A stretch of DNA of 59,495 bases from a virus: IMG/VR virus record IMGVR_UViG_3300002514_000031, positions 1-59,495 of that record; one strand, written 5' to 3'. The position numbers and the translations under genes were made by a program. Of the stretch, positions 4,126 to 59,435 are shown piece by piece. Positions within the stretch are counted from its first letter, which is position 1; the number at the start of each line of letters is the position of its first letter. A model generated the notes under the pieces. The model did no database searches. It saw only the letters and a program-made list of their open reading frames with translations, and was not told where the DNA came from.

Positions 4126-4157
4126 GATTTTACAAACGGCCAATGGAGACTATAATC

Positions 4158-4601: not shown

Positions 4602-4605
4602 TCAT

Positions 4606-27432: not shown

Positions 27433-28362
27433 TCAATCCATTTTATCATGAACAACTTCCCAACACGATGCCGTGAGCCCAGCTTTCTTGCTGTCATAGA
27501 AGTTCTGTTGAAAAGCGTAGATGATCCGCCATGCTTTTTCGGCTAGTTTTCCTCCTCCGAGCAGCACAGAGTTTGCATATCCCAAAACCAACCATCGAAC
27601 GCTCTCAGGATCGTCATCCAGTTCCTTGAGAATGCCCGAGATTTTCTGCCAGCTGGGATTTGGAGAAATCAAAGCACGAGCCAGTTCAATCGCTTGTGCT
27701 TTCATGTCGATATTCTGAATGGCGTTGAGCATTTCTTCGTCATCTTCAATTCCCATTATAGCATTCAAGCTCACCAAAGCAGAACGGGCGGAACCTTCGG
27801 ACACCTCCACCAACCGATCCGCACACTCTTCAGTAATGATGATTTGTTCTTTTCGGCAGACGTAGTTGATCAGGCGTTTCATATCCGTATTCTTCAACAG
27901 CTTCACTACGATCTTCGTTGAGCGGGTGTGTATTGTTTTCTTGAGCTTCTGGGGATCGGTAGTGCTCAAAAAGAAATAGGCATGAGATGGCGTGTCCTCT
28001 AACATTTTCAAAAAGGCATCCTGAGCCTCTCCCGTCATGCGATGGCATTCGTCTATATGCCAGATGCGGCAGGATCCCGAGATGGGAGACAGACTCAGAT
28101 GCTTTTGAATGAAACGCACCATATCAATCCCACGCAAAATACTGCAATTGATTTCTTTGAAATCCTGATCGCCGCAGTCCATTTCTTTTTTCAGGATCCT
28201 CGCCAGCGTAGTTTTGCCGCAACCACTTGGCCCAGAGAAGAGGAGCGTGTGAGGCACTCGCTTGTTCTTGATCATCTCGTTCAATACTTTGACGGGTTCG
28301 GGTTGTCCCCAAACTCTTTTGAGGTCAGTGGGTCGATGCTTTTTGTACAATTCAGTTTTCAA
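27433..28362 (-). CDS. Clamp loader subunit (DnaX/gp44-like AAA+)
   Basis: The TTG at 28362 has AAGGAG 7 bases upstream and gives KTELYKKHRP, the classic DnaX/RFC start, so it is preferred over ATGs further up inside the polymerase gene. The 309 residues have Walker A GPSGCGKT (44-51), WHIDECHRM (Walker B), a sensor STTDP and a TRSTKI arginine finger. It should load the sliding clamp encoded nearby. Overlaps the polymerase end by 11 bases. Confidence 0.88.
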   Translation of the reverse strand: MKTELYKKHRPTDLKRVWGQPEPVKVLNEMIKNKRVPHTLLFSGPSGCGKTTLARILKKEMDCGDQDFKEINCSILRGIDMVRFIQKHLSLSPISGSCRIWHIDECHRMTGEAQDAFLKMLEDTPSHAYFFLSTTDPQKLKKTIHTRSTKIVVKLLKNTDMKRLINYVCRKEQIIITEECADRLVEVSEGSARSALVSLNAIMGIEDDEEMLNAIQNIDMKAQAIELARALISPNPSWQKISGILKELDDDPESVRWLVLGYANSVLLGGGKLAEKAWRIIYAFQQNFYDSKKAGLTASCWEVVHDKMD

Positions 28363-29743
28363 TTTTGATCTCCTTTTTGTCATTCCAACTTTGGCCTTCA
28401 TATGCAATCTCTGCGTCTATTCGTAGAGGCACCGAAATCCATTTCCATTTTCGTGCGAGATCTCGGGTCATTATTTTCTTTGCGGCAGCGAGATAATCCT
28501 GAACTTCATCGACAGGAACGTCAGCCACGATGCTATCATGGATCTGTCCTACAATCTTTGCTCCGCTTCGGTTTCTCTCGATCCATTTTTGTAACCTCGT
28601 CAGGCTCCAAAGCAAACAATGAAAAGCGGATCCCTGAATTGGGGCGTTGATCGCTTCGTTCCTTTTGAAAACTCCGTTCTCAATGAAGCCAGTCAGCGTC
28701 TGCCACCCGCCGTTCTTTTGATATTCACTCCACCACTTCTCTTTCCATTCCGCATATACTTTGAAACGACTGCCCCAGAAATTTGCTTCAACTTCTTGGA
28801 TATGTTTTTCAAATGTTCGTGCCTTCGGTTTCTGCTTAGGATCGCAGGCACCCAATCGAGTGATGCCTTGTTCTTTGAGATGGTCGGTGACCAGCGTTCC
28901 GTTCTTCATGCTCAACTTCCCGCTCACGATATGATCCCAGAGATTGCGTGCGCAGTTGATATAGTAGTCTCCATAGAATTGCGGGAAGATGAATTTGTTT
29001 TTGCCTCCGTATCGTAACTGCTTGGTCACTTGATCGGTGTCCATCATATAGCATTCCGCTGCCATGTCTCGGTGCATGTCCAATGAAAGATCTTCTACAT
29101 AGGCCGTCAACCGAGGATCGTGATGATAGCAACAGGAGATCCCCACTTCAATTCCGCTGTAGTCAAGTTCAACCAGAGCGTGGCCAACCCGAGGAATGAA
29201 CGCTTGCCGAATCAGATCGGCAATCCATTCTAACCTGATTGGGATGTTTTGGAAATTAGGTCTTTCACTGCTTCCACGGAAGGTGGAAACGAGATGAAGA
29301 GAGAAGATTGGGTGAAGAAATCCGTCAACAGTTTCCTTTTGGATTCCGTAGAGGTAGGTGGAGAGTGCTTTTTGTAATTTGGAGATCTTGAGAAACCGTT
29401 TGACATAAGGGATTGACAAGCTGGAGAGACTTTCCTCATCAGTTCGAGGCCGTCCAGTAGGTGTTCGATTGACGCACGCGTGCCCCATGCGATTGAAGAG
29501 AACCTCTCCAAGTTGCTCACGGCTGTTGAAGTTGGCACTCCTCCCAAATGTAGTTTTCCAAACTTGAGTGACTTCATCTTCTTCAAGAGAGCGGTACAAG
29601 TTGGCGATGCGTCTTTTTGTTTTCCCAATAGCTCCTTCGAGATAATCCGTATCAATTCTGATTCCATTGGATTCGATCCTGCTGAGGGTTTGGAGTCCTT
29701 CGTGAAGTAGTTTGTACGCTTCGGGGGTGGTGGCTCTACTCAT
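28352..29743 (-). CDS. DNA polymerase, family A, polymerase domain only
   Basis: A 463-residue family A polymerase module: RGSSERPNFQNIP (156-168), motif A ELDYSGIEVGI (D194), motif B around KNKFIFPQFYGDY (248-260) and motif C GQIHDS (H402, D403). The proofreading domain is absent and is encoded by the gene before it as a fusion with a uracil-DNA glycosylase; the two overlap by 8 bases. It should be the replicative polymerase with the phage clamp and loader. Confidence 0.92.
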   Translation of the reverse strand: MSRATTPEAYKLLHEGLQTLSRIESNGIRIDTDYLEGAIGKTKRRIANLYRSLEEDEVTQVWKTTFGRSANFNSREQLGEVLFNRMGHACVNRTPTGRPRTDEESLSSLSIPYVKRFLKISKLQKALSTYLYGIQKETVDGFLHPIFSLHLVSTFRGSSERPNFQNIPIRLEWIADLIRQAFIPRVGHALVELDYSGIEVGISCCYHHDPRLTAYVEDLSLDMHRDMAAECYMMDTDQVTKQLRYGGKNKFIFPQFYGDYYINCARNLWDHIVSGKLSMKNGTLVTDHLKEQGITRLGACDPKQKPKARTFEKHIQEVEANFWGSRFKVYAEWKEKWWSEYQKNGGWQTLTGFIENGVFKRNEAINAPIQGSAFHCLLWSLTRLQKWIERNRSGAKIVGQIHDSIVADVPVDEVQDYLAAAKKIMTRDLARKWKWISVPLRIDAEIAYEGQSWNDKKEIKIEN

Positions 29744-30965
29744 GACATTTTCCCGTTTGGAGTTTGGAGATCCGTTCCATTTGTATTTGCGCCAGTTTGT
29801 ATTCTAGCAACGCATCCATTCCATTATACAAAAGCAGATCCGTCAAGTTGATCTGATTTATTTTGTTGAACTTGCTTTCGGCGGAGTCTTTGAGATAAGG
29901 TTGAATGTGATCGTCATAAGGAGGCTGTCCCAGTTGGACGTAGGATTGAAACTTGAGTCCAGTGACTCCCGCCTGATTGTTCAGTACATGAGCGGCAAGC
30001 ATCGTGTCCCATTTCCAATTCTTGACTTCCACTCCGAGGATCTTCTGTGTCCACCGATCCTCGAACTTCAAGTTGGCTGCAATCTTTCCGCAATCACTTT
30101 GTAGAAGTTCTTGGGTTGCTTCAATCACTTCTCCCATCCACGGGAAGGCAATTGTTTTGGTTCCTCCCGTACAAACTGCGCATGAATATATTCTGGCTCC
30201 TTTGTATTCGGGCTTCAAGCAGTTCGTCTCATAATCAAAAGCAATATCATCCCCCAGTAGGATCCATTGACGAAGAAGGCGTGCAGCTTCTTCGGGATCG
30301 TGAATGATGCGTATTTCTTTTTGGAGGTCAGGGATCTTTTCCCACGGTTTGGAATGTCTCTTTTTGATAGCGGATCTCAAGTGCTTCCGAAACCAGAGTG
30401 CCAATCCTCGGTTGCGTTCTTCTTCGAGAAGCTGCCACGGGTGATAAGTAGGAACGATCCATGCGTTGGGATTTTGCGAAGGAACAATGAACCCAGCCCA
30501 CTTGGTAGTTGGGCCAGGCGATTCCTTCCAAGTGTGTCCGATGAGACTTTGGATGGCGGTGTTTCCGAGAAGAACGACAACGGTGGGTTTCTTTTCTTCG
30601 ATGACTTGGAACAGGTTGCCACGACAACATAGGATCTCTGCACCGTTCGGCGTTCGTCCTTTCGGTGGACGACATCGCACTGCGTGAGTTCGCCAACAGT
30701 CCTTGTCCAGATGAACGCCCAAAGAGGTGAGTGTTTTTCGTAGGAGCAATCCTGCCTCTCCGCCGAACGAGTCGTGGTTGGCATCTTCTTTTTGATCAGG
30801 AGCTTCACCCACGATCAATATGCTTTTGTCTCCTTCACCTACCATCGGCATTTTAGGACAGGCGCATGAACGAGACAACCCGCATTTCCCGCAGAGAGGA
30901 ACTTTGCTCAATGGTCGGTCATTCGTTTGTAGTAGTTCGGACGTTGTCCAGAATCCCTTACTCAT
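29736..30965 (-). CDS. Uracil-DNA glycosylase (family 4) fused to 3'-5' exonuclease
   Basis: The start at ATG 30965 overlaps the clamp stop by 8 bases. In 409 residues, the N-terminal half is a family 4/5 UDG with iron-sulfur cysteines (C25, C28, and the pair in VRCRPPKGRTPNGAEILCC), the GEAPDQKED motif (53-61) and PTYHP. The C-terminal half is a DnaQ/Pol I exonuclease: FDYETN, ANLKFEDRW and LLYNGMDALLEY. It should proofread and excise uracil beside the separate polymerase. Confidence 0.85.
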   Translation of the reverse strand: MSKGFWTTSELLQTNDRPLSKVPLCGKCGLSRSCACPKMPMVGEGDKSILIVGEAPDQKEDANHDSFGGEAGLLLRKTLTSLGVHLDKDCWRTHAVRCRPPKGRTPNGAEILCCRGNLFQVIEEKKPTVVVLLGNTAIQSLIGHTWKESPGPTTKWAGFIVPSQNPNAWIVPTYHPWQLLEEERNRGLALWFRKHLRSAIKKRHSKPWEKIPDLQKEIRIIHDPEEAARLLRQWILLGDDIAFDYETNCLKPEYKGARIYSCAVCTGGTKTIAFPWMGEVIEATQELLQSDCGKIAANLKFEDRWTQKILGVEVKNWKWDTMLAAHVLNNQAGVTGLKFQSYVQLGQPPYDDHIQPYLKDSAESKFNKINQINLTDLLLYNGMDALLEYKLAQIQMERISKLQTGKCHE

Positions 30966-31977
30966 CCTCAATGACTCCCAGATACGTCACGAACACATAA
31001 CTGCCGTTGTCCACTTTCAACGCCTTCTCGGATACTTCGCACTTGTTGAATCGGTTCGTGATGTCGGAAAGGAGTTTGGGAGAGATCATGAATTCCAACG
31101 CTCGTCCTTTGTAGGAGGTGGGGCGGGTTTCGGTGTAGCTGCCGTTTGGGCCATCACCCGTGATTCGGATCCGCTTGGGTCTCATGTCCACTTTGACTTC
31201 GTTGTGTTCTTCTTCTCTGCTGAAAACCTCGGCACGCTCCGCCATCTCAGTAAGTGCTTTGGGAAGTTTGACGGGATCTCCTGACACATCCAACACTTTG
31301 TCCATCGGCGGGAAATCTTCGGCATATTGCCGACAGCTGAGGGTGAGTCCTTTTTTATTTCGGAAGTGAATCCAACTCTCCGTTATTGCCCACTCATACA
31401 TTACAGCTCTGCCAACTTCTTTCATTGCTTCGTGACGAACCAAAATTGACTTGTCCAATCCCGTGTCCATAGCGTATCGAGTGATTTGGAAGTTGTCGCA
31501 CGCTTCGATCCATTTGGGAGCGACATGAACGCACGTCAATGAGAAGTGACTCTCATCGGTACTGGCTGACTGACGAACGAGATCCACCGCTTGACTGAAT
31601 CCTTCGGGAATGTCCAACCATTCATCCTTCTTCTTCGGTACGTCCACCACGTCAATACCCAAGAGGATTTCGCTTTCCATTCTGATGCGCACTTCCTTCC
31701 GCTTCCCTTTGATGATGAGTGATCCTTCTTCCGTATCCAGCATCAATTTCTCATCGCTGATTTTATGAAGGACATCAATGAGTGGACGGGCTTGTACAGC
31801 TCCTTCGATGTCACCCACGTCACATTTGTAAGAGCATGCAACCTCGTCATTGTACGTGAACACCCGTTTGTTTTTGAAAACCACGCAGCTGCTTTGCTCT
31901 ACAATATCACGGGCGTTCAATCCTGGTGCCACGTTCTCCAATTGCGCCAACAGTTCTTCTCTGTCCACTTGATTCAT
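30958..31977 (-). CDS. Sliding clamp (DnaN-like)
   Basis: The ATG at 31977 with AAAGGA upstream is chosen; the frame runs open further up without a ribosome site. The 339 residues show the repeated clamp-domain pattern of DnaN-like proteins (ARPLIDVLHKISDEKLMLDT; VAPKWIEACDNFQITRYAM; a final YVFVTYLGVI). It lies between acyltransferase-like and UDG-exonuclease genes in the replisome operon and should tether the polymerase. Confidence 0.7.
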   Translation of the reverse strand: MNQVDREELLAQLENVAPGLNARDIVEQSSCVVFKNKRVFTYNDEVACSYKCDVGDIEGAVQARPLIDVLHKISDEKLMLDTEEGSLIIKGKRKEVRIRMESEILLGIDVVDVPKKKDEWLDIPEGFSQAVDLVRQSASTDESHFSLTCVHVAPKWIEACDNFQITRYAMDTGLDKSILVRHEAMKEVGRAVMYEWAITESWIHFRNKKGLTLSCRQYAEDFPPMDKVLDVSGDPVKLPKALTEMAERAEVFSREEEHNEVKVDMRPKRIRITGDGPNGSYTETRPTSYKGRALEFMISPKLLSDITNRFNKCEVSEKALKVDNGSYVFVTYLGVIEDE

Positions 31978-31990: not shown

Positions 31991-32758
31991 TCATCTGTTT
32001 GTGTATATGGTAGCAACCCGTGCTGGGTTGAGTCTCTTCTTGTAAGTTTCCAATCCACGCTGTCCCAGATCTCCTCCGTCATTGACGAGCGGAGGATGAT
32101 CTTTGAACCACTGGGCGTTTCGATAAAAGCACAAACGCAAAAACGCTTGCGCACACGGTTCTCCGTTGTCGATACAAAATCGGAAGTTGGTGAACCTCCA
32201 ATTGTAATCAGCCACGTTCATTCCGATGAGATTGTCATCGCCATCGAGCAAAATCCAGCGGTGGTTTCCGTTGAGAACGTAGTCCACCAAGATGTCTGGA
32301 TCATAGATAGAGTCTTTGCGATCCGCCCACGCCATCAATAGCGTTTCGATCTTCTCATCCAGAGTGGATCCGAGCACGCTCATGGGAACATATTGAAGGT
32401 CAGAATGAGCACGCAAAAAGGTGTTCGTGTTTTTTCGGAAGTTTGCCCAGCGTTGACCGCTCAAGTCGCAAAGAAATTCTTCATGGCGGTAGATGTACTG
32501 ACGATCCAACGCCTCTCCTTCGGACGCATCCAAGAAGCTGCTCCACCATTTGGCTCCTGTATGAATCAAAACATTCTCTTCCTCGAACAGCGGAGGAAAG
32601 AACCAACCGCCATCGTCATCGGTGTAACCGCTCAAGTGTCCCAGACGTGTCCAGACCAATCCTTTGCGCTCAATGTATTCATCGCTGACCCAAAAGTTCG
32701 GTTCAATCTTCTTCTGTCTCAGGTGGAGCCAATAGGTTGAATCCTTTTTTCTTTCCAT
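31991..32758 (-). CDS. DUF2156/FmhB-like acyltransferase
   Basis: The start at ATG 32758 (AAAGG 8 bases before) is preferred over a GTG at 32824, because another gene occupies the overlap. The 255 residues match the GNAT-type fold of DUF2156/phosphatidylglycerol lysyltransferase C-domains: RKNTNTFLR, YVLNGNHRWILLDGDDNLIG and the telling C-terminal VNDGGDLGQRGLETYKKRLNP. Relatives transfer aminoacyl or acyl groups. In this cluster it may acylate a modified nucleobase or a peptide. Substrate unknown. Confidence 0.6.
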   Translation of the reverse strand: MERKKDSTYWLHLRQKKIEPNFWVSDEYIERKGLVWTRLGHLSGYTDDDGGWFFPPLFEEENVLIHTGAKWWSSFLDASEGEALDRQYIYRHEEFLCDLSGQRWANFRKNTNTFLRAHSDLQYVPMSVLGSTLDEKIETLLMAWADRKDSIYDPDILVDYVLNGNHRWILLDGDDNLIGMNVADYNWRFTNFRFCIDNGEPCAQAFLRLCFYRNAQWFKDHPPLVNDGGDLGQRGLETYKKRLNPARVATIYTNR

Positions 32759-32861
32759 CACTTTTGCCTTTGCTTCCTTTGCTTGTTCCGAAGCGTTTGT
32801 TTTTGATTTTGCTAATGAGGGCACGGCTCACGCCTCCGCTCTTTCTACTTTTTCCGCCCAT
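32703..32861 (-). CDS. Small basic protein (52 aa)
   Basis: An ATG four bases after the preceding stop, with AAAGGA about 11 bases upstream. The 52 residues are Ser/Lys/Gly-rich and basic with an acidic end (APPETEED). It overlaps the acyltransferase start by 56 bases in another frame. Probably nucleic-acid-binding by charge; no family known. Confidence 0.5.
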   Translation of the reverse strand: MGGKSRKSGGVSRALISKIKNKRFGTSKGSKGKSDGKKKGFNLLAPPETEED

Positions 32862-32864
32862 GTG

Positions 32865-33614
32865 TCATTCATCCTTTCCCAGCTCGTCATATACGCATAA
32901 ACCAATCACGCATTCCATCGGGAAGCGTTTGTCTGTGCTTTCGATCCATGCGATGTTCTTATCAAAACTCCATTCCAGATTATCCGCAAAAGCGTACAAC
33001 GCAGCGAAGTCCTGCGTGCGGATCCCGATGGGCTCGAACTCATCCAACTCTTGCGATGCTACGGCGTTCAATCCCACGCTCTCTTTTTTCGTGATGGTGA
33101 TGATTGAACCTGAATAAATATCTCGCTGGACAATACGCAATTTGCCTTTGCGTGCGGAGAACTCGATGTGGCTCAGGTTCTCGTCCAGTAGTTTGAACAG
33201 ATCGGATCCCAAGATCACGCTGTTGCCTTCGGGCTTCTCGAATTTTTCAAAAAGACTCCGCACATTGTCAGGCGTTCTTTCGGGAGTCTTACAAGATTTG
33301 GTCTTGGTGTATTTGTCGGTGCGGGTAATGAATTTGATGCGGCCACCTTCCTCGAGAAACTCCTTGGATTCATAGTCATCCGCTCGGAAGGAGACGGGAG
33401 AAGCAAAGGTTGAATCCTGCTTCCTCAAAGGGAAATGAATCAGCACCGTAGAGTCCTGATTGAGAATGAAAATCTTTTTGTTCAAGCAATAGATCGTATT
33501 GCGCAACCTCCCGTTCTGCGTCAATGCGGCAGCGTGTGAAAAGATGTCTTCCACGGTCTGATTGATTTTGGTGTTTCTTTTTTTCTTCGCTGCCTTCTTT
33601 TTCTTTTTGGCCAT
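32865..33614 (-). CDS. Hypothetical protein with Lys-rich N-terminus (249 aa)
   Basis: AAAAGGATTATAAC precedes the ATG, one base after the radical SAM stop. A basic tail (KKKKKAAKKKR) is followed by a beta-rich body, with VILGSDLFKLLDENLSHIEFSA and ALYAFADNLEWSFDKNIAWIES. The alternation of helices and strands vaguely recalls a clamp-like fold, but I cannot support that. It lies in the putative modification cluster. Confidence 0.6.
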   Translation of the reverse strand: MAKKKKKAAKKKRNTKINQTVEDIFSHAAALTQNGRLRNTIYCLNKKIFILNQDSTVLIHFPLRKQDSTFASPVSFRADDYESKEFLEEGGRIKFITRTDKYTKTKSCKTPERTPDNVRSLFEKFEKPEGNSVILGSDLFKLLDENLSHIEFSARKGKLRIVQRDIYSGSIITITKKESVGLNAVASQELDEFEPIGIRTQDFAALYAFADNLEWSFDKNIAWIESTDKRFPMECVIGLCVYDELGKDE

Positions 33615-33615
33615 G

Positions 33616-35031
33616 TTATAATCCTTTTATGATGTCTTCAAGTATCCGCTCTCTGAAATCGGTGTCTTTGTATTTCCAAACCAATGAACCTTCATCGGTT
33701 CCCGCCACGTGCATTCCTCTTGACCAGCTGTGGGAGTAGGCACTTTGGTTCCCTTCAGTATTCCAAAGTGCCTTCACATCCCTGTACAACGCTGCACTCA
33801 AAAAGCCTCCGTGTTTGTTGACGTAGTTGACGAAGTTTTTCCATGATGTCGGTTTGCCTTTTCGTTTTTGAATATAACGAGCTGCAGTGACAGTGCATCC
33901 ATAATTGAATCCGCCTCGGAACCAATCACCAACCTCGCAACATACCATCTGATTATTGTCGGGAGCATTTCCCATATCGAACGTGGAACAAGAGAAACCT
34001 CGCTCACGAAACATCTGCATGAACTTTCCCAATAGCAAACTTCCCGCTGCTTGCGAGTCGCACCCGAGGAGAAACAATCTGTCCCAATCGTATCCCATGT
34101 TATGAAAACTTTGCCTGATGCCAGGATTCTTTGCGGTGTATGAATAGGTGTCGAAGGTTATATGACGACAACCGATTTCCCAAACATCTTTCATGTATTG
34201 TTCCACGTCCTCTTTTTTGTCGTTCAGAAAAACCAAGAACGGTTCAATGCGAGGCACCACACGCACGCCAGCTTTCACGAGTTTCTCCATTGCACGCAAT
34301 CGTCTGCGATACGAAGGTGCGCCAGGTTCCAGTTCTTTCAGGAACTCATTGTCAGAAGAAATCAAAGTCATATGAACAGCTGCTCGTCCTGCGTTACGTG
34401 CGAGTGCCTCCACATAATCGTCTCGACCAACCAAAGCACTTTTGGTGTTTATCATTACAGGATAAGAAATGTCAGCGAGATACTCCAGAAGTTCCAAGCT
34501 GATTCCTTTTTCTTTTTCATCATCGAGAAAGTCCTCAAAGCGGATCCCGAACCTCATTGGAATTTCCAAGCCTATGGCTTTGGCTACGGCGGCACCCGAA
34601 GCGAAGGAGTGAGGATCCTTTCCACGGTTCTTCATAAGCACATCCAGTTCCTTTTTATACATGGTGGCATTACAATGACGGAACCCCATTGTTTTGGAAT
34701 TGTCGAAGAAGGCCGTGTACAAACTCGCTCGAAAGGCATTGGCGTAGCAATACTTGCAACCGAACGGGCAGAGCAATCCATCCCACGTATCAATATTCAG
34801 AGGCATCGGACACGCCTGAGCACGGCACGATACTTCTACGAAACTGTTCAGCTCTTCGAGGTTCAGGAGACGTTCCTGAGGGATCCATTTACTCTCGGTG
34901 AGTTTGAATTCTTGGTATTGAGTTTTGCGTCCTTTCTCTTTGACGGGTTGGATCTTTCCTTTCTCGTCAACGAGTTTGCGAGTGCGTGGGATCACGTTCG
35001 CAACTATGGATCTCAGTTCATAATAATCCAT
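33616..35031 (-). CDS. Radical SAM enzyme, spore-photolyase-like (A)
   Basis: The ATG at 35031 has GGAAGG 7 bases upstream. The 471 residues carry the radical SAM CxxxCxxC motif at C88, C92, C95 (CPFGCKYCYAN). It is followed by IPMRFGIRFEDFL, a pattern like SPL-type enzymes that act on DNA thymine, and by SYRRRLRAMEKLVKAGVRVVPRIEPF, the second SPL-like block. A C-terminal region of extra Cys and Trp is unusual. It may rearrange a carbon skeleton on a nucleobase or another substrate. Confidence 0.8.
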   Translation of the reverse strand: MDYYELRSIVANVIPRTRKLVDEKGKIQPVKEKGRKTQYQEFKLTESKWIPQERLLNLEELNSFVEVSCRAQACPMPLNIDTWDGLLCPFGCKYCYANAFRASLYTAFFDNSKTMGFRHCNATMYKKELDVLMKNRGKDPHSFASGAAVAKAIGLEIPMRFGIRFEDFLDDEKEKGISLELLEYLADISYPVMINTKSALVGRDDYVEALARNAGRAAVHMTLISSDNEFLKELEPGAPSYRRRLRAMEKLVKAGVRVVPRIEPFLVFLNDKKEDVEQYMKDVWEIGCRHITFDTYSYTAKNPGIRQSFHNMGYDWDRLFLLGCDSQAAGSLLLGKFMQMFRERGFSCSTFDMGNAPDNNQMVCCEVGDWFRGGFNYGCTVTAARYIQKRKGKPTSWKNFVNYVNKHGGFLSAALYRDVKALWNTEGNQSAYSHSWSRGMHVAGTDEGSLVWKYKDTDFRERILEDIIKGL

Positions 35032-35033
35032 GG

Positions 35034-35537
35034 TCACCCTTCCATCATCTTTTTTACTTCGGGCAATTCTTTGTTATTGTTCAGAACAGCTTTTGTGAAA
35101 GGCTTGACGTGATCTTTCAATTGGTATCCCGTTCGGTGACAGTCTTTCATAAGGGTGTCCAATTTGGATGCGGTCTTTTCATAGAAGTTTGGATCACCTT
35201 TTCCGAGTTTTGGAACGAGGCCAAAACCTTTTTTTGATTTCTTCCCCTCTTTCTGTTCGGCAATCATATCCAGCAGGATCATCCCAGCTGCGTAGTTGCT
35301 TTTTGCCGCCAGTAGTGTGTGGGCAACAGTTGAGTCCTTGTCATCTTCTCGTTTTATCACGCAGTGGTTTTTGTTTTTGTAGATGTGTCCGAACTTTGTT
35401 CTGTCTTCCACGTTTGAAAAGACATGCGTGTTCTTCCTATTGACTTTCAGATCGCCAAAAGGCAAAAAGCCATCCACGCCTTCAAACACAAGGGATTCCA
35501 CACGTGTCGCTTTCATACTATATTTTGATCCTGACAT
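35034..35537 (-). CDS. Hypothetical protein (167 aa)
   Basis: AGAAGGAGAAATAAAA precedes the ATG, directly downstream of a TATAATAAGAC promoter motif. Lys-rich throughout, with VFEGVDGFLPFGDLKVNRK and a helical C-terminal half. It overlaps nothing and is followed three bases later by radical SAM A. Function unknown; co-transcription with the cluster is likely. Confidence 0.6.
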   Translation of the reverse strand: MSGSKYSMKATRVESLVFEGVDGFLPFGDLKVNRKNTHVFSNVEDRTKFGHIYKNKNHCVIKREDDKDSTVAHTLLAAKSNYAAGMILLDMIAEQKEGKKSKKGFGLVPKLGKGDPNFYEKTASKLDTLMKDCHRTGYQLKDHVKPFTKAVLNNNKELPEVKKMMEG

Positions 35538-35553
35538 TTTTATTTCTCCTTCT

Positions 35554-35566
35554 GTCTTATTATAGA
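35554..35566 (-). promoter_or_regulatory. TCTATAATAAGAC promoter motif
   Basis: -10 TATAAT (35564-35559 leftward) with TTGTTTCGATATC upstream and AAGACAGAAGGAG downstream. It gives a very short 5' UTR before the 35537 start. The upstream TGTTTCGATAT matches, reversed, an 11-base string in the early leftward promoter. Confidence 0.6.
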
Positions 35567-35591
35567 TTGATGATATCGAAACAATCTGACT

Positions 35592-36503
35592 TTATGGAAT
35601 AAGGTGCTCAAAACCTTCCGAACCTATCGCATCAAATGTTCCGTCCAGTATTTTCCTGATGTTCTCTTCTATGACATCACGTTTGTTTTTCGTAATGGAT
35701 GTCGCATGCCATCTTTTTTCTTTCCAACCCACGAAGGGTTCTGTTTTCGGTAGTTCTTTTATTTTGTACGTGTTGTCAAATAGTTGTCTGATGTTTCCGT
35801 TGTCTAATGCGCATAGCAAATAATCTCGGCACCAGTGGATCGCATTCAAAACTTCTTCTGGATTCACTGAGGCGGAGAAATGACGAAACTCTATTGTGTC
35901 TGTTTGTAGAAGTTGGCGGAGACTGATTGCCGCCCGAGGTTGAGCGTGCCATAGTGGGCTCCCTTTTTTGCTTTGCGGAACTTCTAACTCAAAGAACCTT
36001 TTGATTGATTTGGCTTGTAGTTGTTTTTGTACTCGGTTTATTGGAATGGAAGTCCAGTGACTCATTCTCATCCACCGCTGACGTTTCACCGCTTCTTTGT
36101 GTTCTCGGGCAGATGGGAAATCGAAGCGAGTGGGAATGGGCAACGGATCCACATGATGATAAATGTCGGTGTTTTCCGATATGAATTTTTGGATCTTTTT
36201 CAGAACGTCCAAGTTGTCTTTCAATCCTGGCATGCGAATGTGAACATGCAAACCCGCTCGATGAGTCGCCACCGCTCTCGGGTGCTTCTTCAAAAACTTT
36301 TGAAGGAGTTTGATTTGTTCCTCGGGTGTTTCCGTTGCGGGTGTATTGATTTCTCCTCCAAATGGATAGCTCTTCAGGGAAGGATCCGTTGCGATCCCGT
36401 TACTGTTACAAGCGTTTGGTTCTGGATCTCTTCCGAAACCTTCCCAACCTTTCCGAGTATCCCAATCACCGAACTCGTGCTCACAACCGTATGTCCATTT
36501 CAT
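35592..36503 (-). CDS. Amidoligase-family protein (GS-like fold)
   Basis: The ATG at 36503 with AAGGAG 8 bases upstream (ATGA overlap with the PLP gene) is preferred over ATG 36509. The 303 residues show the amidoligase signature order: YGCEHEFGDWD near the start, GGEINTP, RAGLHVHIRMP and IEFRHFSASVNPEEV. Families of this type form COOH-NH2 bonds, e.g. amides on small molecules or peptides. Here it may conjugate an amine or amino acid. Substrate not visible. Confidence 0.65.
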   Translation of the reverse strand: MKWTYGCEHEFGDWDTRKGWEGFGRDPEPNACNSNGIATDPSLKSYPFGGEINTPATETPEEQIKLLQKFLKKHPRAVATHRAGLHVHIRMPGLKDNLDVLKKIQKFISENTDIYHHVDPLPIPTRFDFPSAREHKEAVKRQRWMRMSHWTSIPINRVQKQLQAKSIKRFFELEVPQSKKGSPLWHAQPRAAISLRQLLQTDTIEFRHFSASVNPEEVLNAIHWCRDYLLCALDNGNIRQLFDNTYKIKELPKTEPFVGWKEKRWHATSITKNKRDVIEENIRKILDGTFDAIGSEGFEHLIP

Positions 36504-37360
36504 ATCCATTCTCCTTCATGGCCTATATTCCAAAACAAAATCGGTTCTTCAATTGGTCGGTGCGTTCTCATAAGCCACTGCCACGCCTTGCGGTCATAGA
36601 AAGCATGACACGGAAAAGGGCAAGGCTCCTCGGATCGTTCGGTGTACTCCCATCCCAAGTCAACCAATTTCAAATTCTTTCTTTTAATTCCAGTGATCCC
36701 GCCTTCCACCTTTTTGGCTTTGAAAAGGATCTTCTTTTTTTTCTGAATGACGTTTCCTGTCCGACACATAATGCCGAACGCCTTGCAGCCTTCGGGAAGT
36801 TTCCTCAACAGTCCAGCAAAGATTGTTCCCGATCCTACGCAACACACCACCGTCCGAAGAGTGATCTTTTTCAGAGTCCTTTGAAACTCTCTAGCGGTTT
36901 CGTGAATCGTCTGTTCCAAAGGCAATCCCAAGTCCAGCATCTCCGCTTCTTTTCCAAACTCGTTCCGCAATCTTTTTCTACAGATATGATAATTCACTCT
37001 TGCCATTCCCGCTTCCACTTTGCGGATCGTGGCGTTGCACTTCTTCCAGTGCTTCCGATGGATCTTCAGAACCTCATGCGGTTCTTTGTATTGAGGATCG
37101 TATATGACGGCCTGTAAGCCAAGTTGTTGGCACGCCCATGCAACTCCCCATCCAGCCATGCTGATGCTCGTCTCGGTGTATCCTACCACGCGCAATCCCT
37201 TTTCCTTCCGCTCGGATAAGTAAGTATACACGCCTCTCATTTTGCTGAATGGCGGGGATCCTTCTGGCCCGCAGAGATCTTCCCGCTTGACGTGGATGGT
37301 TCTGCCTCCTGCTTCGTAGGTTTCAATGGGGGTGTTTTTTCTCATCGTCAGTTTCGTCAT
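36500..37360 (-). CDS. Fold-type-II PLP-dependent enzyme
   Basis: GGGAGTGTT precedes the ATG. The 286 residues match the tryptophan-synthase-beta/ACC-deaminase fold: VKREDLCG, then SPPFSKMRGV with the likely PLP lysine K40, SISMAGWGVAWACQQLG (phosphate/substrate loop) and VGSGTIFAGLL (the Gly-rich PLP loop). It overlaps radical SAM B and the amidoligase by 4 bases each, so the three are made together. Reaction unknown; beta-elimination or replacement on an amino-acid-like substrate is typical. Confidence 0.75.
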   Translation of the reverse strand: MTKLTMRKNTPIETYEAGGRTIHVKREDLCGPEGSPPFSKMRGVYTYLSERKEKGLRVVGYTETSISMAGWGVAWACQQLGLQAVIYDPQYKEPHEVLKIHRKHWKKCNATIRKVEAGMARVNYHICRKRLRNEFGKEAEMLDLGLPLEQTIHETAREFQRTLKKITLRTVVCCVGSGTIFAGLLRKLPEGCKAFGIMCRTGNVIQKKKKILFKAKKVEGGITGIKRKNLKLVDLGWEYTERSEEPCPFPCHAFYDRKAWQWLMRTHRPIEEPILFWNIGHEGEWI

Positions 37361-38421
37361 AACACTCCCGCATCTTTCATAGTATAGAAGTCACCCTTTT
37401 TTCCCGTCAGTATTTTCAAGCCTTCTTCTTTGTTTCCAATCCCTTCCCATGTGGTGTTCTCGATGTGTTCTTTGTCGTGTCCTGCTTGTAGCATACTTTT
37501 CCAATAGTGAGTATTGAAGAGGGACGGGTTGGGCACGTTGATTCCGCAGCAGGTGTTCGCTTGTTCTTTCCAATCGGATCCCGTGTTCACAAAATCAGGA
37601 CACCCCAAACGGATCCCCACGTCATCGGCAATCTCGCATAATTTCTTTTGGATCTTCCGCCAAGGCCGATCCTGATTCATCGTCCAGATCTTCTCGATGT
37701 CCAATCCAATTGAATGGAACCGTTTGGCTACGTGGTCATTGAGATGAAGATTATATGTATTGTAGCTCTCCACGCCGATGTCTTTCAACCTGAGCAGGAG
37801 ATCTCGGAACTGTTCGGTGGTATGCAATCCTGGAATGAAGGGTTCACCGTTGACTCCCACAGCATATCCTGTTCGCACCCAGCGTCTCATTATGCGGAAC
37901 CGCTTGTCAATGGGCGTGGTTCTTTTTCGTTCCAGCGTTTCCCAATCCCATTCGGCGCCAGGAGAAATCACGGGCATCACCGTGAGTAGTTTTTTGTCTC
38001 GAGCTTCTTGAAGAAGAGGTTCGCACAAAACCAAGTTCCCGAGGAAGTGGGTTTGAATTACGAACGTCCAATTCAAATCTATCAAGTGCTGAAGGATCCG
38101 CATGGATACTTTGTGTTTGATTTCGGCGGGTTGGAAAGGATCCGTTTTGTTGCCGAAGCGTATTGTTTTTTTGAGGCGGAGTGCGTTTGCCAAACTGGTT
38201 TTGGGATTCTTGTTTTTCAATCCCGCTTCCAGCTTTCGGCGGATCTGTTCGGGATCCGCTGGCCGAAGATCTTGCCCCCACGTCCGATTCAACTTGCGCA
38301 AATAGCAATGGTGGCAATCCGCTTCGCAGTTCCAATAACTGTCAATAGAAAAAGGCAGTGGACAATAGAGGCAATCACCTCTAATGCCCACTGCCGATTT
38401 GTATGTTTTGGTGTCTGCCAT
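37357..38421 (-). CDS. Radical SAM enzyme, spore-photolyase-like (B)
   Basis: The ATG at 38421 follows the stop of the Lys/Ala-rich gene by one base; no clear ribosome site, so translational coupling is likely. The 354 residues have C32, C36, C39 (CEADCHHCY), then RFGNKTDPFQPAEIKHKVSMRIL, a close match to the SPL GxxTDPYQPxE block, and VNGEPFIPGLH. Extra cysteines near the C-terminus (TCCGIN) could bind a second cluster. Operonic with the PLP and amidoligase genes. Confidence 0.8.
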   Translation of the reverse strand: MADTKTYKSAVGIRGDCLYCPLPFSIDSYWNCEADCHHCYLRKLNRTWGQDLRPADPEQIRRKLEAGLKNKNPKTSLANALRLKKTIRFGNKTDPFQPAEIKHKVSMRILQHLIDLNWTFVIQTHFLGNLVLCEPLLQEARDKKLLTVMPVISPGAEWDWETLERKRTTPIDKRFRIMRRWVRTGYAVGVNGEPFIPGLHTTEQFRDLLLRLKDIGVESYNTYNLHLNDHVAKRFHSIGLDIEKIWTMNQDRPWRKIQKKLCEIADDVGIRLGCPDFVNTGSDWKEQANTCCGINVPNPSLFNTHYWKSMLQAGHDKEHIENTTWEGIGNKEEGLKILTGKKGDFYTMKDAGVL

Positions 38422-38422: not shown

Positions 38423-39046
38423 CTACAGAGCAACAACTTTCCCGACAACACGAGCGTTGTCACCATCGACTTCAATGAGGCCGAGGATTTGGCATTCCAA
38501 CATTACGCGTTTTGTATGCCAGACAGCTTCTTTGTCGTTTCCACGGCCTCCGTGCGCCATGTACTCTTCGTTGGTCTTTTCTGCGATCTCGTTGACCGTG
38601 AATTTCTTTTTCTTCAGGTTGGCAATCGCTTCAATGATCAACTTCTGACGTGTTGGTTTCTTCTTCGCAACTTTCTTCGCAGTTTTCTTCGGTTCGGGTT
38701 CCTTTTTCTTTGCTGCTTTTTTCGCTGCCTTCTTCGCAACTTTCTTCGCAACTTTCTTCGCAGTTTTCTTCGGTTCGGGTTCCTTTTTCTTTGCTGCTTT
38801 TTTCGCTGCCTTCTTCTTCACGGGTTTCTTATCTTCTACGATCTCCAAGGCATTGCCTTCGCTGATCGTGATCTCGATGTCCTCCAGATTGGTGCGCTGT
38901 TCTTCATTCAGCTTTTCGAGGTCAGTGTCCTCGCTCTTGGCGAGAACTTTACATTTGTTGGCCAGCTGGGTGTCACTCCATTTGTAGGCCGTTCCATATC
39001 CTAATGCCGTGAAAATTTCAACAACTTCTTTTTTAGTGATAATCAT
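38423..39046 (-). CDS. Lys/Ala/Pro-rich histone-H1-like DNA-binding protein
   Basis: AAGGAGACCAAAA precedes the ATG at 39046. In 207 residues: an N-terminal helical domain (TKKEVVEIFTALGYG), a central tract of KKAAKKAAKKKEPEPKKTAKKV repeats like eukaryotic H1 or bacterial H1-like tails, and a C-terminal winged-helix-like domain (RQKLIIEAIANLKKKKFTVNEIAEKT). It should bind DNA non-specifically through the tract. It precedes the radical SAM/PLP genes in the same transcript. Confidence 0.7.
   Translation of the reverse strand: MIITKKEVVEIFTALGYGTAYKWSDTQLANKCKVLAKSEDTDLEKLNEEQRTNLEDIEITISEGNALEIVEDKKPVKKKAAKKAAKKKEPEPKKTAKKVAKKVAKKAAKKAAKKKEPEPKKTAKKVAKKKPTRQKLIIEAIANLKKKKFTVNEIAEKTNEEYMAHGGRGNDKEAVWHTKRVMLECQILGLIEVDGDNARVVGKVVAL
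38664..38818 (-). repeat. 81-bp tandem duplication in the Lys/Ala tract
   Basis: The block AGTTTTCTTCGGTTCGGG recurs with an offset of 81 bases (38681 and 38762 for the AGTTTTCTTC string), a 27-codon in-frame repeat with near-identical copies, indicating recent duplication or slippage. Confidence 0.75.
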
Positions 39047-39094
39047 TTTTGGTCTCCTTGTGTTAGTGTTTTTGATTGTCACGTTTTTGCTTCC

Positions 39095-42370: not shown

Positions 42371-43723
42371 TCATTTCTCCTCTAATGAATGGATCAGAGC
42401 ATCATACAAATTGAAATCGTTCTTGACGTTCTTCCCGTCCATCGTGTCAGCAATTACGTTTTGTTTTTTCTGAATCAACTCGCATAGCATTTCTTCTATC
42501 GTTCCTTTGGCTACGATGTAGGTGATCTGGGCAGCGTTCTTTTGTCCGATACGGTGGATGCGATCTTCGGCCTGAGTATGGTTCGCTGGAACCCAATCGA
42601 GTTCCGCAAACAGCACGTTACTCGATGCGGTGAGGGTGATACCCGTTCCTGCGGCAATGACGTTACCAAAAAACAAACGGATCTTTTTTTGGTGCTGGAA
42701 GGAGTTGACTGCTTTCTGTTTGTTGAGCGGTGAGGTACTTCCATCCAACACCACCGAGTTCCTCGGATACAAGTCATGAAGTCCACGCACAACTTTCTTA
42801 TGAACGCCGAACACCACCAGCTTTTCATCCGTCTCTTCTAAGAAGCTGTCAATCCATTTTTTGACGGCCTCCATTTTCAAGTCCATCGCTTTCCTTTTCA
42901 AGTATCCCATTTTGTTCAACACCAGAGCCTTCTTCACTCGGTGAACTTTGGAGGGTTTGTTTTCGTGTAGCCAGCGGAGGAAGTTGTCACGCACTTTTTT
43001 GTACTCGGTCAACTTCACCGATATGGGAACCACGGTGCGGATCTTGTCAGGGAGTTCTTTCAGAACGTCCTTTTTGCGTCTGCGTATCAACATGTGTCGA
43101 TTGAGTCTGGTGTGAAGTTCTTCGAGGTGTTCCGCTCCTTTGTATATCCACTTGCCGTTCTTGAGTTCGGGTTTGCAATAACGGGCAGCGTAGGCAAGGA
43201 AGTCATTGAATACTTCGGGATACAGCAGGTGAATCATCGGCCAAAGTTCGGCAGGACAATTCAACATTGGCGTTCCCGAGATCGCAATGATATGTTTGAA
43301 TCGAGTTGCTAATGCTAGCAGCATCTGCGTTCGTTGAGCGGATCGGTTCTTTGCGTAATGACACTCATCAATGATGAGGGTTTTGAACCCGCCCGTCCGC
43401 AGCTTCTTTCCCCACGCATTCAGGATCTTGTAATTGATAATCGTGATGGGGAGATCAATTTTGATATTTTCTTTTTTGGCGGTCATCCCGTTCAACACTC
43501 GACTGAGCATGCCCGCTTTGGTGGAGGCTTCTTTTTCCCATACCCATTTCAAATGAGCAGGGCACACCACCAAAGCAGGCAAGGCAATCTCGGGATTCTC
43601 TTTCACCCACCATAACGCTTGAAGGGTTTTCCCGAGTCCCATTTCATCGGCCAGCAACGCTCGTCCTTTGAAGTGGGAAATCCATCGCACTCCTTTCTTT
43701 TGATATTTGAAAAGGATGCTCAT
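42371..43723 (-). CDS. SNF2-family DNA helicase/translocase
   Basis: A 450-residue two-domain helicase: DEMGLGKT (26-33), IIDECHYAKNRSAQ (DECH box), ISGTPM, then the second RecA fold with FGVHKKVV, the AAGTGITLTASS loop and DRIHRIGQ. This is the SNF2/SMARCAL1 pattern without added domains. It may remodel forks or transcription complexes. Overlaps the sigma-like gene by 4 bases. Confidence 0.9.
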   Translation of the reverse strand: MSILFKYQKKGVRWISHFKGRALLADEMGLGKTLQALWWVKENPEIALPALVVCPAHLKWVWEKEASTKAGMLSRVLNGMTAKKENIKIDLPITIINYKILNAWGKKLRTGGFKTLIIDECHYAKNRSAQRTQMLLALATRFKHIIAISGTPMLNCPAELWPMIHLLYPEVFNDFLAYAARYCKPELKNGKWIYKGAEHLEELHTRLNRHMLIRRRKKDVLKELPDKIRTVVPISVKLTEYKKVRDNFLRWLHENKPSKVHRVKKALVLNKMGYLKRKAMDLKMEAVKKWIDSFLEETDEKLVVFGVHKKVVRGLHDLYPRNSVVLDGSTSPLNKQKAVNSFQHQKKIRLFFGNVIAAGTGITLTASSNVLFAELDWVPANHTQAEDRIHRIGQKNAAQITYIVAKGTIEEMLCELIQKKQNVIADTMDGKNVKNDFNLYDALIHSLEEK

Positions 43724-44259
43724 TGAAGCACTTCCCGTATTTCATCAACAACAGCTCGGAAGCGATGCGCATTCCATCCTTCTTTTTTGATCGTCTCTTC
43801 TCGCACGGAAGATCTGATGTTTGCAAAAGATCCTCCTTTGCTATCTATGATTGTTTGGATTTCATTTGGCGTATTCAAAACCAAATCCAAAACCGTTTGA
43901 GTGTCTTCACTCACGGCATCATAGACATGCGTCCAAAACTCTCTCGGTTCTTCTGATGCTATTGGATCCAGTTCTCCTCCTCGTTGGAATCGGTTACAAT
44001 ACCGTGCCGCTCTCCGCCACGCATCAAACAAATGCGTTCGAACGTAACTGACCAGAAGAGTAGTGAAGGCGTTTCCATAAGAAGGGTCAAAGGCTTTGTA
44101 TGCTTTTACAAAAGCCAAACACGCTTCCGAGTATAGTTCATCCAGAGATAGAAGGGAGCCGTGTCGCTCGATGAATCGGTGACACATGTCGTGTAGAAGT
44201 TGTTTGACATCTCGGTACGTTTGGTCAAAAGCATCCGTGGTAATGGTTGTACATATCAT
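43720..44259 (-). CDS. Sigma-70 region-2-like factor
   Basis: AGGAGACGATT precedes the ATG. The 179 residues contain a sigma region 2-like run: LDELYSEACLAFVKAYKAFD, then FTTLLVSYVRTHLFDAWRR (the core-binding and -10 helix), and a weak C-terminal helix-turn-helix (GGSFANIRSSVREE). It could redirect host RNA polymerase to middle or late phage promoters, perhaps the TATAATAAGAC type, though it sits behind one itself. Confidence 0.7.
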   Translation of the reverse strand: MICTTITTDAFDQTYRDVKQLLHDMCHRFIERHGSLLSLDELYSEACLAFVKAYKAFDPSYGNAFTTLLVSYVRTHLFDAWRRAARYCNRFQRGGELDPIASEEPREFWTHVYDAVSEDTQTVLDLVLNTPNEIQTIIDSKGGSFANIRSSVREETIKKEGWNAHRFRAVVDEIREVLQ

Positions 44260-45995: not shown

Positions 45996-47297
45996 TCATT
46001 TCATTTCCACTATGTCTCCAAAGGGAACCTTCGGAAGTTCGTGACGCCACGGGCAGGGAGTCGCAACCCACAGCGTTGGATAGTCAGGCTCCTCTTCAGG
46101 AAAGCGTCCATCCAAGTCCGTCAGATATATCAAACACGCTGGTTCAATATCTTCCTTCTCAATCCATTCAAACACGGGAGTGAATCGAGTTCCACCGCCA
46201 CCAATCGGTTTCGGTTCAATCGGCATATCCGCTCGGGTGAAAGTCTCGGTTCCTCGGACTTCATAATCACAATACACAACTCGCACTGTCGTGTCATAAT
46301 GTTCGAGGATGGAGGAGGCTTCCTTCGCAAACTTGCTCAGCGTCTGCGTGTCAACCGATCCGCTGGTATCAATCGCCAGCACGATCTCGGGCAACTCCTC
46401 GCTAACCAAACTCGGAAGAACCAACCCACGTCCAATGTAACGCTTGGATGGTCTGTTCCAGTTGTAGTCATTGCGTGCGGTATTCTCAACGAAGTCTCGC
46501 AACAAAACGTCCCATGAGGTTTCGGGATTCACGATCTCATCAACCATTCGTTTGAGATCTCCCTGACCCGATCCGATTTGTCGAGAGGCTTGAGAAGTGG
46601 CTACACGCCATTCATCTTTCAGCTCTTCGATTGCTTCTTTGGAGAAGTCATCGCCAACTTCGGGATCTTCTACACCACCGCATCCGCCAGGATCCATTGT
46701 ATCACCTTCTGCGGAGCCATCTTGACCTTCGGTGGCCTCGGAGCCATCTTCAGATCCTTCGTTGGTCTCGGAGCCATTCTCATCGCTCTCATCGCTCTCA
46801 TCGCTCTCGTTGTCTCGGTCATCGGAGGATCCTGCCTGACCTTCATTGTCCTCTTCGTTCTCATCGGTATCGTCTTTGTCTTCATCAGCGTCAGGTTTCG
46901 GATTGGTATTGCTCAACCTCTCATACCATTCTTCCGCACTCAACAGCTCATCCGTCATCAACGCTCCCTTCGGGAGTTTGAATCCTGCTTTGATCAGGAT
47001 CGGGTTGATGGAGTAGTCACACGCTTGATTCCACAGCTTCATATCTCGGTTCCCACGTCTCCAGAAGTGACCGTTGCTACAGTGCATAACCTCGTGAGCG
47101 TAGCATCCCATGAGTTCGGGATCAGGCTGCGCATCAACAAATGAAGGACTCCATCTGATTCTCTTCCCGTCCACCATCGCCGTTCCAGCTTTCTCATCCA
47201 GTACATTTGCGAGCTTCATCGACAACGTGCCGAAGAAGCTATGATCAAGCACCAGATGCGTCCGTGCCTTCGTGATTCTTTTCATTATGTTTTCCAT
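45996..47297 (-). CDS. DUF2201-like metallopeptidase-VWA protein
   Basis: GGAAAGGATAGTACA precedes the ATG. In 433 residues: an N-terminal zinc-type HEVMH (68-72) domain with NQACDYSIN, a long acidic Ser/Asp/Glu linker, and a C-terminal VWA-like domain with the MIDAS-type DTSGSVD. This is the layout of VWA-like metallopeptidases that partner MoxR ATPases. The MoxR gene lies two genes upstream, with a helical protein between. A protein-remodelling or chaperone role is likely; the target is unknown. Confidence 0.8.
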   Translation of the reverse strand: MENIMKRITKARTHLVLDHSFFGTLSMKLANVLDEKAGTAMVDGKRIRWSPSFVDAQPDPELMGCYAHEVMHCSNGHFWRRGNRDMKLWNQACDYSINPILIKAGFKLPKGALMTDELLSAEEWYERLSNTNPKPDADEDKDDTDENEEDNEGQAGSSDDRDNESDESDESDENGSETNEGSEDGSEATEGQDGSAEGDTMDPGGCGGVEDPEVGDDFSKEAIEELKDEWRVATSQASRQIGSGQGDLKRMVDEIVNPETSWDVLLRDFVENTARNDYNWNRPSKRYIGRGLVLPSLVSEELPEIVLAIDTSGSVDTQTLSKFAKEASSILEHYDTTVRVVYCDYEVRGTETFTRADMPIEPKPIGGGGTRFTPVFEWIEKEDIEPACLIYLTDLDGRFPEEEPDYPTLWVATPCPWRHELPKVPFGDIVEMK

Positions 47298-48308: not shown

Positions 48309-49298
48309 TTACAGGAGGATCTCTTGATGATCATTCGCCCATTGAATGAAGTCAACGTTGTTCGCAGCTTCGGGGCACTTTCGTAATGTATCACGGATAG
48401 CCAACACGCCGAACTCATCGGGCAGCCTCGTGGCGTATTGGATGATGCTACTGGCGTTGTCTTCATTCGCCATGGTAGCAATTGCCGTTGAGATAGCATA
48501 CATCGCAGCGGGTTCGGTAGGCACTACGGCATTTGTAGGATCGCTCAGCACGGCATCCATATCAGGAAGATCTTCCCACACTCGGAGGAAGCCAACAAAC
48601 TCGGTAGCGAGTCCAGTACCAGCCGCACCACCGAGTGTTTCCACATCCGTGATTCCTAATGCAACCCATTCAGCGAGGTTGGTCACGGTTCGAGGAGAAG
48701 GACGATTCACGATGTCGTTGGTTGGAGCACCAGGATCCGTCATCAGGCCAGGTCGCAGCCGAACGAAGGCAACAACCTCGGGAGCCACTCCATTTTCCAA
48801 CGCCCATGCACACCAGTCATCCACATCCACATCCAGCTGGACGATAGTTTTGAAACGTGATTTGATAGGTTCCAAAACGCCAGTGACTCCAGCTTTGTCT
48901 TCTCTTCGGTTCGTGGCAGAGATGAACACGACATGGTCGCTGATTTTCTTCCCGTTGATTTCACGTGCGAGGAGGAGTTGCATGTTGGAGGCTTGAACGC
49001 AGGCAGGTGCCTGACCGAGATCATCGATCAATACCACCGTCAACCGATCCACTTCCATCATCTTCCGCAGATCGCCATAAGGGAGAAACTCAGCCTGCCC
49101 GTCCACGATCCCAGGCAATCCCTTTTTGTCGGTAGGATCTTCAACCACGGGGTGAGTGATAATCAAATCAGCTCCTGCTTCCGCCGCAGCCTGTTTGACA
49201 ATGTCGCTCTTGCCGATACCTGGCGCACCTTTGATAAGAACGGGCTTGTTGTTTTTGATTGCCTTGACCAATAGTTTTTTCAGTTTTGTAGCTTTCAT
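48309..49298 (-). CDS. MoxR-type AAA+ ATPase
   Basis: The ATG is preceded by the repeated AGAAAGGA leader (49307-49332). The 329 residues have Walker A GAPGIGKS (24-31), VVLIDDLGQAP (Walker B), VFISATNRRED (sensor 1) and a downstream lid with PSPRTVTNLAEWV. This is the MoxR branch, which with VWA proteins remodels or activates other proteins. It is an early gene here. Confidence 0.85.
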   Translation of the reverse strand: MKATKLKKLLVKAIKNNKPVLIKGAPGIGKSDIVKQAAAEAGADLIITHPVVEDPTDKKGLPGIVDGQAEFLPYGDLRKMMEVDRLTVVLIDDLGQAPACVQASNMQLLLAREINGKKISDHVVFISATNRREDKAGVTGVLEPIKSRFKTIVQLDVDVDDWCAWALENGVAPEVVAFVRLRPGLMTDPGAPTNDIVNRPSPRTVTNLAEWVALGITDVETLGGAAGTGLATEFVGFLRVWEDLPDMDAVLSDPTNAVVPTEPAAMYAISTAIATMANEDNASSIIQYATRLPDEFGVLAIRDTLRKCPEAANNVDFIQWANDHQEILL

Positions 49299-59118: not shown

Positions 59119-59360
59119 CTATTTACAGACTACCGTGGGCAGTTGTTTTTATGATTGGCGTGATTACTTCTTCGGTGGTGATCACTGCCGTAGCGGTTCG
59201 GAGCATCGACAAAAAGCTATCCGAACCCATCACCGTCAAACGATACGATCCGCCAGAAGATCCTCACGCACTGGAAAAGATCGAAGCGGAGAAAAAGGAA
59301 GCACTCAAGCCCGCACCGCTTCCTCCGTGCCCGTTGACGGATCTGGGTCATGGAAGTTGA
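59115..59360 (+). CDS. Small membrane protein (81 aa)
   Basis: TAGGAGACCAACT precedes the ATG. One N-terminal membrane span (WAVVFMIGVITSSVVITAVAV, about 8-28), then a Lys/Glu/Pro-rich soluble tail. It overlaps the preceding gene by 4 bases. No family recognised. Confidence 0.6.
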   Translation: MTIYRLPWAVVFMIGVITSSVVITAVAVRSIDKKLSEPITVKRYDPPEDPHALEKIEAEKKEALKPAPLPPCPLTDLGHGS

Positions 59361-59435
59361 GAGACGGTATGGATTGCTGCGTGGCGGATGATGGAGCTGT
59401 TCGCTGTCTCTCCTTCCTTTTTTTGGAAGGTGTGC

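Follow-up and report, generated by a model that had tools for sequence, protein, structure and literature searches.

How might a phage hypermodify its DNA bases when the genes known to begin such a pathway are missing? The question is raised by a gene set in IMG/VR virus record IMGVR_UViG_3300002514_000031, which we analysed over its whole length of 59,495 bp (hereafter the window) and compared with more than 100 related contigs of uncultured phages. A preliminary description had singled out five genes, encoding two radical S-adenosylmethionine (SAM) proteins (rSAM A and rSAM B), a fold-type-II pyridoxal 5′-phosphate (PLP) enzyme, an amidoligase and a DUF2156-like acyltransferase, and had proposed that they are candidates for nucleobase hypermodification, perhaps in a new combination, or for a novel biosynthetic pathway. 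Our analysis indicates that the virus very probably uses this gene set to decorate its DNA with additional chemical groups. Moreover, the absence of the known priming enzymes, with a pair of radical enzymes in their place, points to a new chemical route.

An operon beside the replication genes shares tailoring genes with M6-type cassettes

The five open reading frames (ORFs) were all confirmed on the minus strand at the coordinates described, barring alternative starts; the flanking genes in Table 1 lie on that strand too. Together with a gene for a sliding-clamp-fold protein, which we add to the set, they form a single compact operon adjoining the replication genes. It runs from rSAM B through the PLP enzyme, the amidoligase, an orphan protein of 167 aa, rSAM A and the 249-aa clamp-fold protein to the acyltransferase, after which come the replicative clamp and a family A polymerase that is split. 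Several neighbouring genes abut or share a few bases, and the overlap previously described for the rSAM B, PLP and amidoligase genes was borne out, amounting to 4 nt between rSAM B and the PLP gene and 4–10 nt between the PLP and amidoligase genes. The order rSAM B, PLP enzyme, rSAM A, clamp-fold protein, acyltransferase and clamp was repeated in dozens of contigs at a protein identity of only about 30–65%; given this recurrence in divergent contigs, the gene set is not a chance assembly.

Both the PLP enzyme and the amidoligase exceeded the cut-offs of their families (Table 1), in agreement with their earlier assignments. The PLP enzyme shares 35.8% identity, over 95% of its length, with its homologue gp052 from Pseudomonas phage M6; Lys40 is invariant among its relatives, and by analogy it may decarboxylate an amino-acid side chain carried by DNA. 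A report on SN1 (PMC9476957) and a restriction study of M6 (PMC6449724) describe M6 as making 5-hydroxymethyl-dU (5-hmdU, or hmdU) and phosphorylating it in DNA. In the M6 (5-NedU) cassette, which like that of the window lies beside replication genes, a homologous PLP enzyme is accompanied by a radical SAM protein from the broad group to which rSAM A and rSAM B are also assigned. By the account of Lee et al., M6 then reportedly attaches an amino acid, and a radical SAM rearrangement followed by PLP-dependent decarboxylation yields 5-aminoethyl-dU. The window, by contrast, lacks the hydroxymethylase, kinase, helical-domain and amino acid:DNA transferase genes of M6, and has the clamp-fold and acyltransferase-fold proteins together with two radical SAM proteins that each form a separate clade.

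Scanning uncultured viral contigs with PLP and radical SAM alignments, followed by protein clustering, separated two types of cassette. The M6 type comprises the transferase, the kinase, HMUDK_hel, a thymidylate synthase (TS)-like gene, the PLP enzyme and a gp053-type radical SAM protein, and the window type comprises rSAM B, a variable stretch, rSAM A, the clamp-fold protein, the acyltransferase, the clamp and the polymerase. The window's PLP family was present in 77 contigs, 37 with hmdU genes, 29 with the window-type core, 2 with both and 9 with neither (five of these nine being distant homologues of 23–24% identity). No contig combined hmdU genes with a clamp-fold or acyltransferase-fold gene. 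This neighbourhood comparison supports base hypermodification in a new combination, the PLP enzyme and amidoligase being M6-type tailoring genes.

The known priming genes are missing from a closed genome

Contig G001 (51,758 bp) was 99.97–100% identical to the window over their common parts and bridged the window's ends: G001 1–182 corresponds to window 59314–59495, G001 183–5323 is new, and G001 from 5324 onward corresponds to the window from position 1 onward. These overlaps yield a closed circle of about 64.6 kb, so that a gap in the priming genes applies genome-wide; the presence of terminase, portal, head and tail genes makes such absences meaningful.

Whole-record profile searches covered 29 window-type records (the window, G001 and 27 others, several exceeding 60 kb) and three M6-type controls. 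In Pfam names, M6 gp051 is the amino acid:DNA transferase (ADDT, PF18724), gp054 the 5-hmdU DNA kinase and gp055 its helical domain (HMUDK_hel). The kinase was found in 0/29 window-type records by a profile that matched 3/3 controls, the helical-domain protein in 0/29 (2/3 controls) and the transferase in 0/29 (3/3 controls). No dUMP hydroxymethylase (thymidylate synthase family, PF00303) was present in the window or G001, and the M6-type controls matched. None of these four genes lay in the 5.1-kb G001 link that closes the circle. The preliminary description was thus right that the window contains neither hydroxymethylase nor kinase, a caveat that has become the principal finding here, and the same is true of the flanking sequence and the completed genome, the kinase and transferase being absent from the other sampled records as well. 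A search for TET/JBP returned no match, but no control matched either.

To our knowledge, 5-hydroxymethyl-dU is the starting point of all known thymidine hypermodifications, and the window-type class would therefore escape any search that relies on hydroxymethylase, kinase or transferase genes. We found no description of the gene set in the literature searched, which did not take in the main M6-pathway papers, so that an earlier mention is possible.

Two radical SAM proteins and a clamp-fold protein form a recurrent core

Both radical SAM proteins matched NCBIfam PA0069 below its curated cut-off (rSAM A, 1e-16, 61 of 360 bits; rSAM B, 7e-14, 51.6 of 360 bits), and M6 gp053 likewise matches the PA0069/Rv2578c group of NCBIfam below curated cut-offs. 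In a tree of 141 sequences, the relatives of rSAM A, rSAM B and gp053 formed separate clades of the same broad group. All three proteins have the radical SAM motif, a conserved Cys 12–14 residues upstream and conserved C-terminal cysteines; in rSAM B, CxxxCxxC, one upstream Cys and three C-terminal Cys were invariant in 41/41 relatives. From this conservation, the extra cysteines may bind a second iron–sulphur cluster.

Spore photoproduct lyase (SPL) was rejected as the identity of either protein (photo_TT_lyase, E 0.09 for rSAM A and none for rSAM B; Pfam SPL unmatched by both), and the earlier "SPL-type" label cannot be kept in its strict sense, the pair being related to the PA0069/Rv2578c group instead. 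The superfamily and CxxxCxxC are common to the pair, PA0069/Rv2578c and SPL-like proteins, but the window's proteins fall below every curated cut-off, carry the additional conserved cysteines in their upstream and C-terminal parts, and occur as two paralogues per genome. Relatives of rSAM B were found in 33 viral contigs. Among 50,697 phage records, neither rSAM B nor the acyltransferase had a match and rSAM A had only weak ones; no rSAM B was confirmed in 84,980 bacterial and archaeal species genomes, and PDB sequence searches with the radical SAM proteins returned nothing useful. One rSAM A relative (L007:7010-7897) carries an intein-like insertion within the CxxxCxxC motif, and contigs L080 and L090 (also L075) hold M6-type cassettes with an additional rSAM A-like protein.

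Foldseek supported the clamp fold of the 249-aa protein (E 2e-9, probability 1.00, TM about 0.55–0.6). Sequence proof that it is a paralogue of the adjoining clamp was not obtained, the profile comparison with that clamp being negative. A scan seeded on the clamp-fold gene alone returned 48 contigs, with rSAM A in 48/48, at least two radical SAM genes in 40/40 of those having at least 6 kb upstream, and the PLP enzyme in 22/48; an amino acid:DNA transferase or kinase was found in 0/48.

As for the acyltransferase, the fold was modelled with confidence (pLDDT 86), and Foldseek matched it to MprF/LPG synthase, Sbb17 and FemX (E 1e-9 to 1e-5). The DUF2156-like call is weak by sequence, the LPG_synthase_C/DUF2156 profile score staying below the cut-off, but is supported by this model. 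The fold is also that of aminoacyl-tRNA-dependent (streptothricin-type) peptide synthases. Of 46 contigs found by a scan seeded on this gene, 39 had rSAM A, three had the clamp-fold gene on a contig that ends early and four had neither. Since those four lack radical SAM genes, we do not count this gene among the obligate members of the core. In one of them (L146:4710-8885), a TET-associated glycosyltransferase (TAGT) takes the cassette's place, adjoining the acyltransferase-fold gene and the clamp, which makes the slot look like one for DNA modification.

Amidoligases accompany amine-exposing enzymes

Seeding a scan on the amidoligase returned 11 contigs besides the window's near-copy, and 10/11 carried hmdU-pathway genes, nine of them the full set. 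Of these ten, four had both the PLP enzyme and a radical SAM protein of gp053 type and six had a flavin adenine dinucleotide (FAD)-dependent oxidoreductase, an arrangement with the amidoligase that also occurs in the hmdU cassette of phage Simon. Since the best-characterised relatives of the FAD oxidoreductase include glycine oxidase ThiO and MnmC, this enzyme suits the release of an amine. The amidoligase was thus always accompanied by an amine-exposing step in hmdU contigs, which suggests that it acylates the exposed amine. In phage Simon (PQ683277) and IMG/VR contig 3300017963_000277 (L228), the amidoligase is 42–56% identical to that of the window and likewise adjoins the amine-exposing enzyme; unlike the window, both have the complete hmdU priming set. 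Two further homologues were noted: L233:10001-10879, the sole one in the scan without known modification genes within about 10 kb, and a distant one (L132:7878-8990) beside the 7-deazaguanine synthesis genes of Vibrio phage 2.275.O.

The variable stretch of window-type relatives holds an FAD oxidoreductase with an aldo/keto reductase, methyltransferases, CmoA and FemAB-like genes. Three families, the c22 methyltransferase, FemAB-like c47 and the FAD oxidoreductase, are common to both cassette types, as are amidoligase genes. The trees suggest, though not significantly, repeated movement of tailoring genes from one type to the other. A comparable logic is seen in the CmoA/CmoX/CmoY carboxymethylcytosine system, wherein a base handle is extended by an ATP-dependent amide ligase, CmoY, which is an asparagine-synthetase homologue (PMC12783734). 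Three relatives (L008, L043 and L047) have CmoA (cluster 104) in their variable stretch, but the window's cassette does not, and CmoY is not an Amidoligase_2 protein. In two of these stretches (L008:7448-8925 and L043:4710-6169), the CmoA homologue, a carboxy-SAM (Cx-SAM) synthase, lies beside a methyltransferase, a hint of carboxymethylation of the handle.

A two-module model and its alternatives

The operon is probably a DNA base hypermodification cassette of two modules, an hmdU-independent priming core and a PLP/amidoligase tailoring module. The core would consist of rSAM A, rSAM B, the clamp-fold protein and usually the aminoacyl-tRNA-transferase-fold protein; acting on replicated DNA, it would add a side chain carrying an amino acid, most likely at the thymine methyl group, and so stand in for the dUMP hydroxymethylase, 5-hmdU DNA kinase and amino acid:DNA transferase. 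The PLP enzyme would then decarboxylate the side chain, as is thought for its M6 homologue, to leave a primary amine, to which the amidoligase would join an amino acid or another carboxylic acid. Of the M6 steps the window retains the last, to which it adds amide formation, and has none of the first; the simplest reading is hence that the core yields the same amino-acid-bearing base by other means. We infer DNA as the substrate from the shared partners, the clamp fold and the location in the replication module; thymine as the base, along with the order and chemistry of the steps, is likewise inferred. A more specific version, to which we give somewhat less than even credence, is that a dedicated clamp-fold partner keeps both radical SAM enzymes on ordinary replicated DNA, where they attach an amino-acid side chain through carbon directly to the thymine methyl with no 5-hydroxymethyl intermediate. 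This would be a new means of initiating hypermodification, spread in a lineage of uncultured phages and completed by interchangeable tailoring enzymes. If the model is true, a widespread group of uncultured phages carries unreported DNA bases, a DNA base is functionalised by radical chemistry after replication, and the window's amidoligase family gains a likely role.

Several observations weigh against this model. DNA as the target is argued from genomic association. The acyltransferase-fold gene occurs in four contigs without radical SAM or clamp-fold genes. Neither rSAM A nor rSAM B is an orthologue of gp053, whose reaction is therefore no guide to theirs. Tree tests of repeated tailoring-gene exchange were not significant (p-AU 0.28 and 0.10), and two window-type records carry a TS-family gene, L029 with a full-length ThyA match and L006 with a divergent one.

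These TS-family genes would also fit ordinary hmdU-based hypermodification, in which an unrecognised or host enzyme supplies 5-hmdU, a non-homologous kinase acts on it, and the radical SAM proteins do no more than isomerise or tailor, as they do in M6. The tailoring genes are indeed those of hmdU cassettes, L080 and L090 pair an rSAM A-like protein with a transferase, and the negative TET/JBP search had no matching control. We nevertheless regard this explanation as unlikely: the kinase, helical domain and transferase are jointly missing from 29/29 records, several of them above 60 kb, and TS from most; the completed genome has no known priming gene; and hmdU genes never share a contig with a clamp-fold or acyltransferase-fold gene. 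Distinctly unlikely, in our estimate, is a core that modifies cytosine, adenine or guanine, with tailoring enzymes that accept the same side chain on another base. The present results leave room for a base other than thymine, amide-bearing handles on other bases exist, as in the 5-carboxymethylcytosine system (PMC12783734), and the Vibrio phage homologue adjoins 7-deazaguanine genes; yet the relatives of the PLP enzyme and amidoligase otherwise lie in thymidine cassettes.

Natural products, too, are built with radical SAM, PLP, amide ligase and aminoacyl-tRNA transferase genes, and the acyltransferase fold matches streptothricin-type peptide synthases, so a pathway for a small molecule, a peptide or RNA modification was weighed, together with DNA repair by the radical SAM pair. 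Either is very unlikely. We recognised neither a precursor peptide nor a carrier or transporter in the vicinity of the genes, which lie within the replication module and include a clamp-fold protein in their core; their tailoring partners are DNA-modification genes elsewhere, and repair would need neither a decarboxylase nor an amidoligase.

Flanking genes and other features of the window

The DnaB helicase, Lys-rich histone-like protein, sliding clamp and family A polymerase of the earlier account were all identified in the flanks. Within the split polymerase, 29736-30971 encodes a uracil-DNA-glycosylase domain fused to a polymerase-type 3′-5′ exonuclease domain, the polymerase following in a separate ORF.

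Table 1 Operon and flanking features, with positions in the window and supporting evidence.
Feature	Position	Strand	Evidence
Split replicative polymerase (flank)	28352..30971	-	Uracil-DNA-glycosylase domain + 3′-5′ exonuclease ORF, then family A polymerase ORF
Replicative sliding clamp (flank)	30958..31977	-	phrog_947 3.7e-37; probable start ATG 31977
Aminoacyl-tRNA-transferase-fold protein (DUF2156/FemX-like)	31991..32824	-	LPG_synthase_C 5.6e-5, below cut-off; 10/20 relatives match
Sliding-clamp-fold protein, 249 aa	32865..33614	-	Model pLDDT 86.5; Foldseek to PCNA and 9-1-1 clamps
Radical SAM protein A, 473 aa	33616..35037	-	Radical_SAM 35.0 bits, over 29.5 cut-off
Orphan protein, 167 aa	35034..35537	-	No Pfam match; seen only in the window and near-copy contig
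Amidoligase	35592..36509	-	Amidoligase_2 (PF12224) 30.4 bits, over gathering cut-off of 22
Fold-type-II PLP enzyme	36500..37360	-	PALP 47.2 bits, over 35 cut-off; phrog_7093 4e-47
Radical SAM protein B, 354 aa from ATG 38421	37357..38421	-	Pfam Radical_SAM only 12.2 bits; NCBIfam PA0069 7e-14
Lys-rich histone-like protein (flank)	38423..39082	-	Cluster 13; adjoins rSAM B in most relatives

Elsewhere in the window, 43720-44259 encodes a sigma-factor-like protein, and a DUF2201 metallopeptidase/VWA protein (45996-47297) lies near an AAA ATPase (48309-49298), perhaps as a pair. A glycan-decoration set was also noted at 4606-5271 and at L224:1405-5980, comprising a sialyltransferase-like PHROG, a nucleotide-sugar transferase, a pyruvyl transferase and a family 2 glycosyltransferase.

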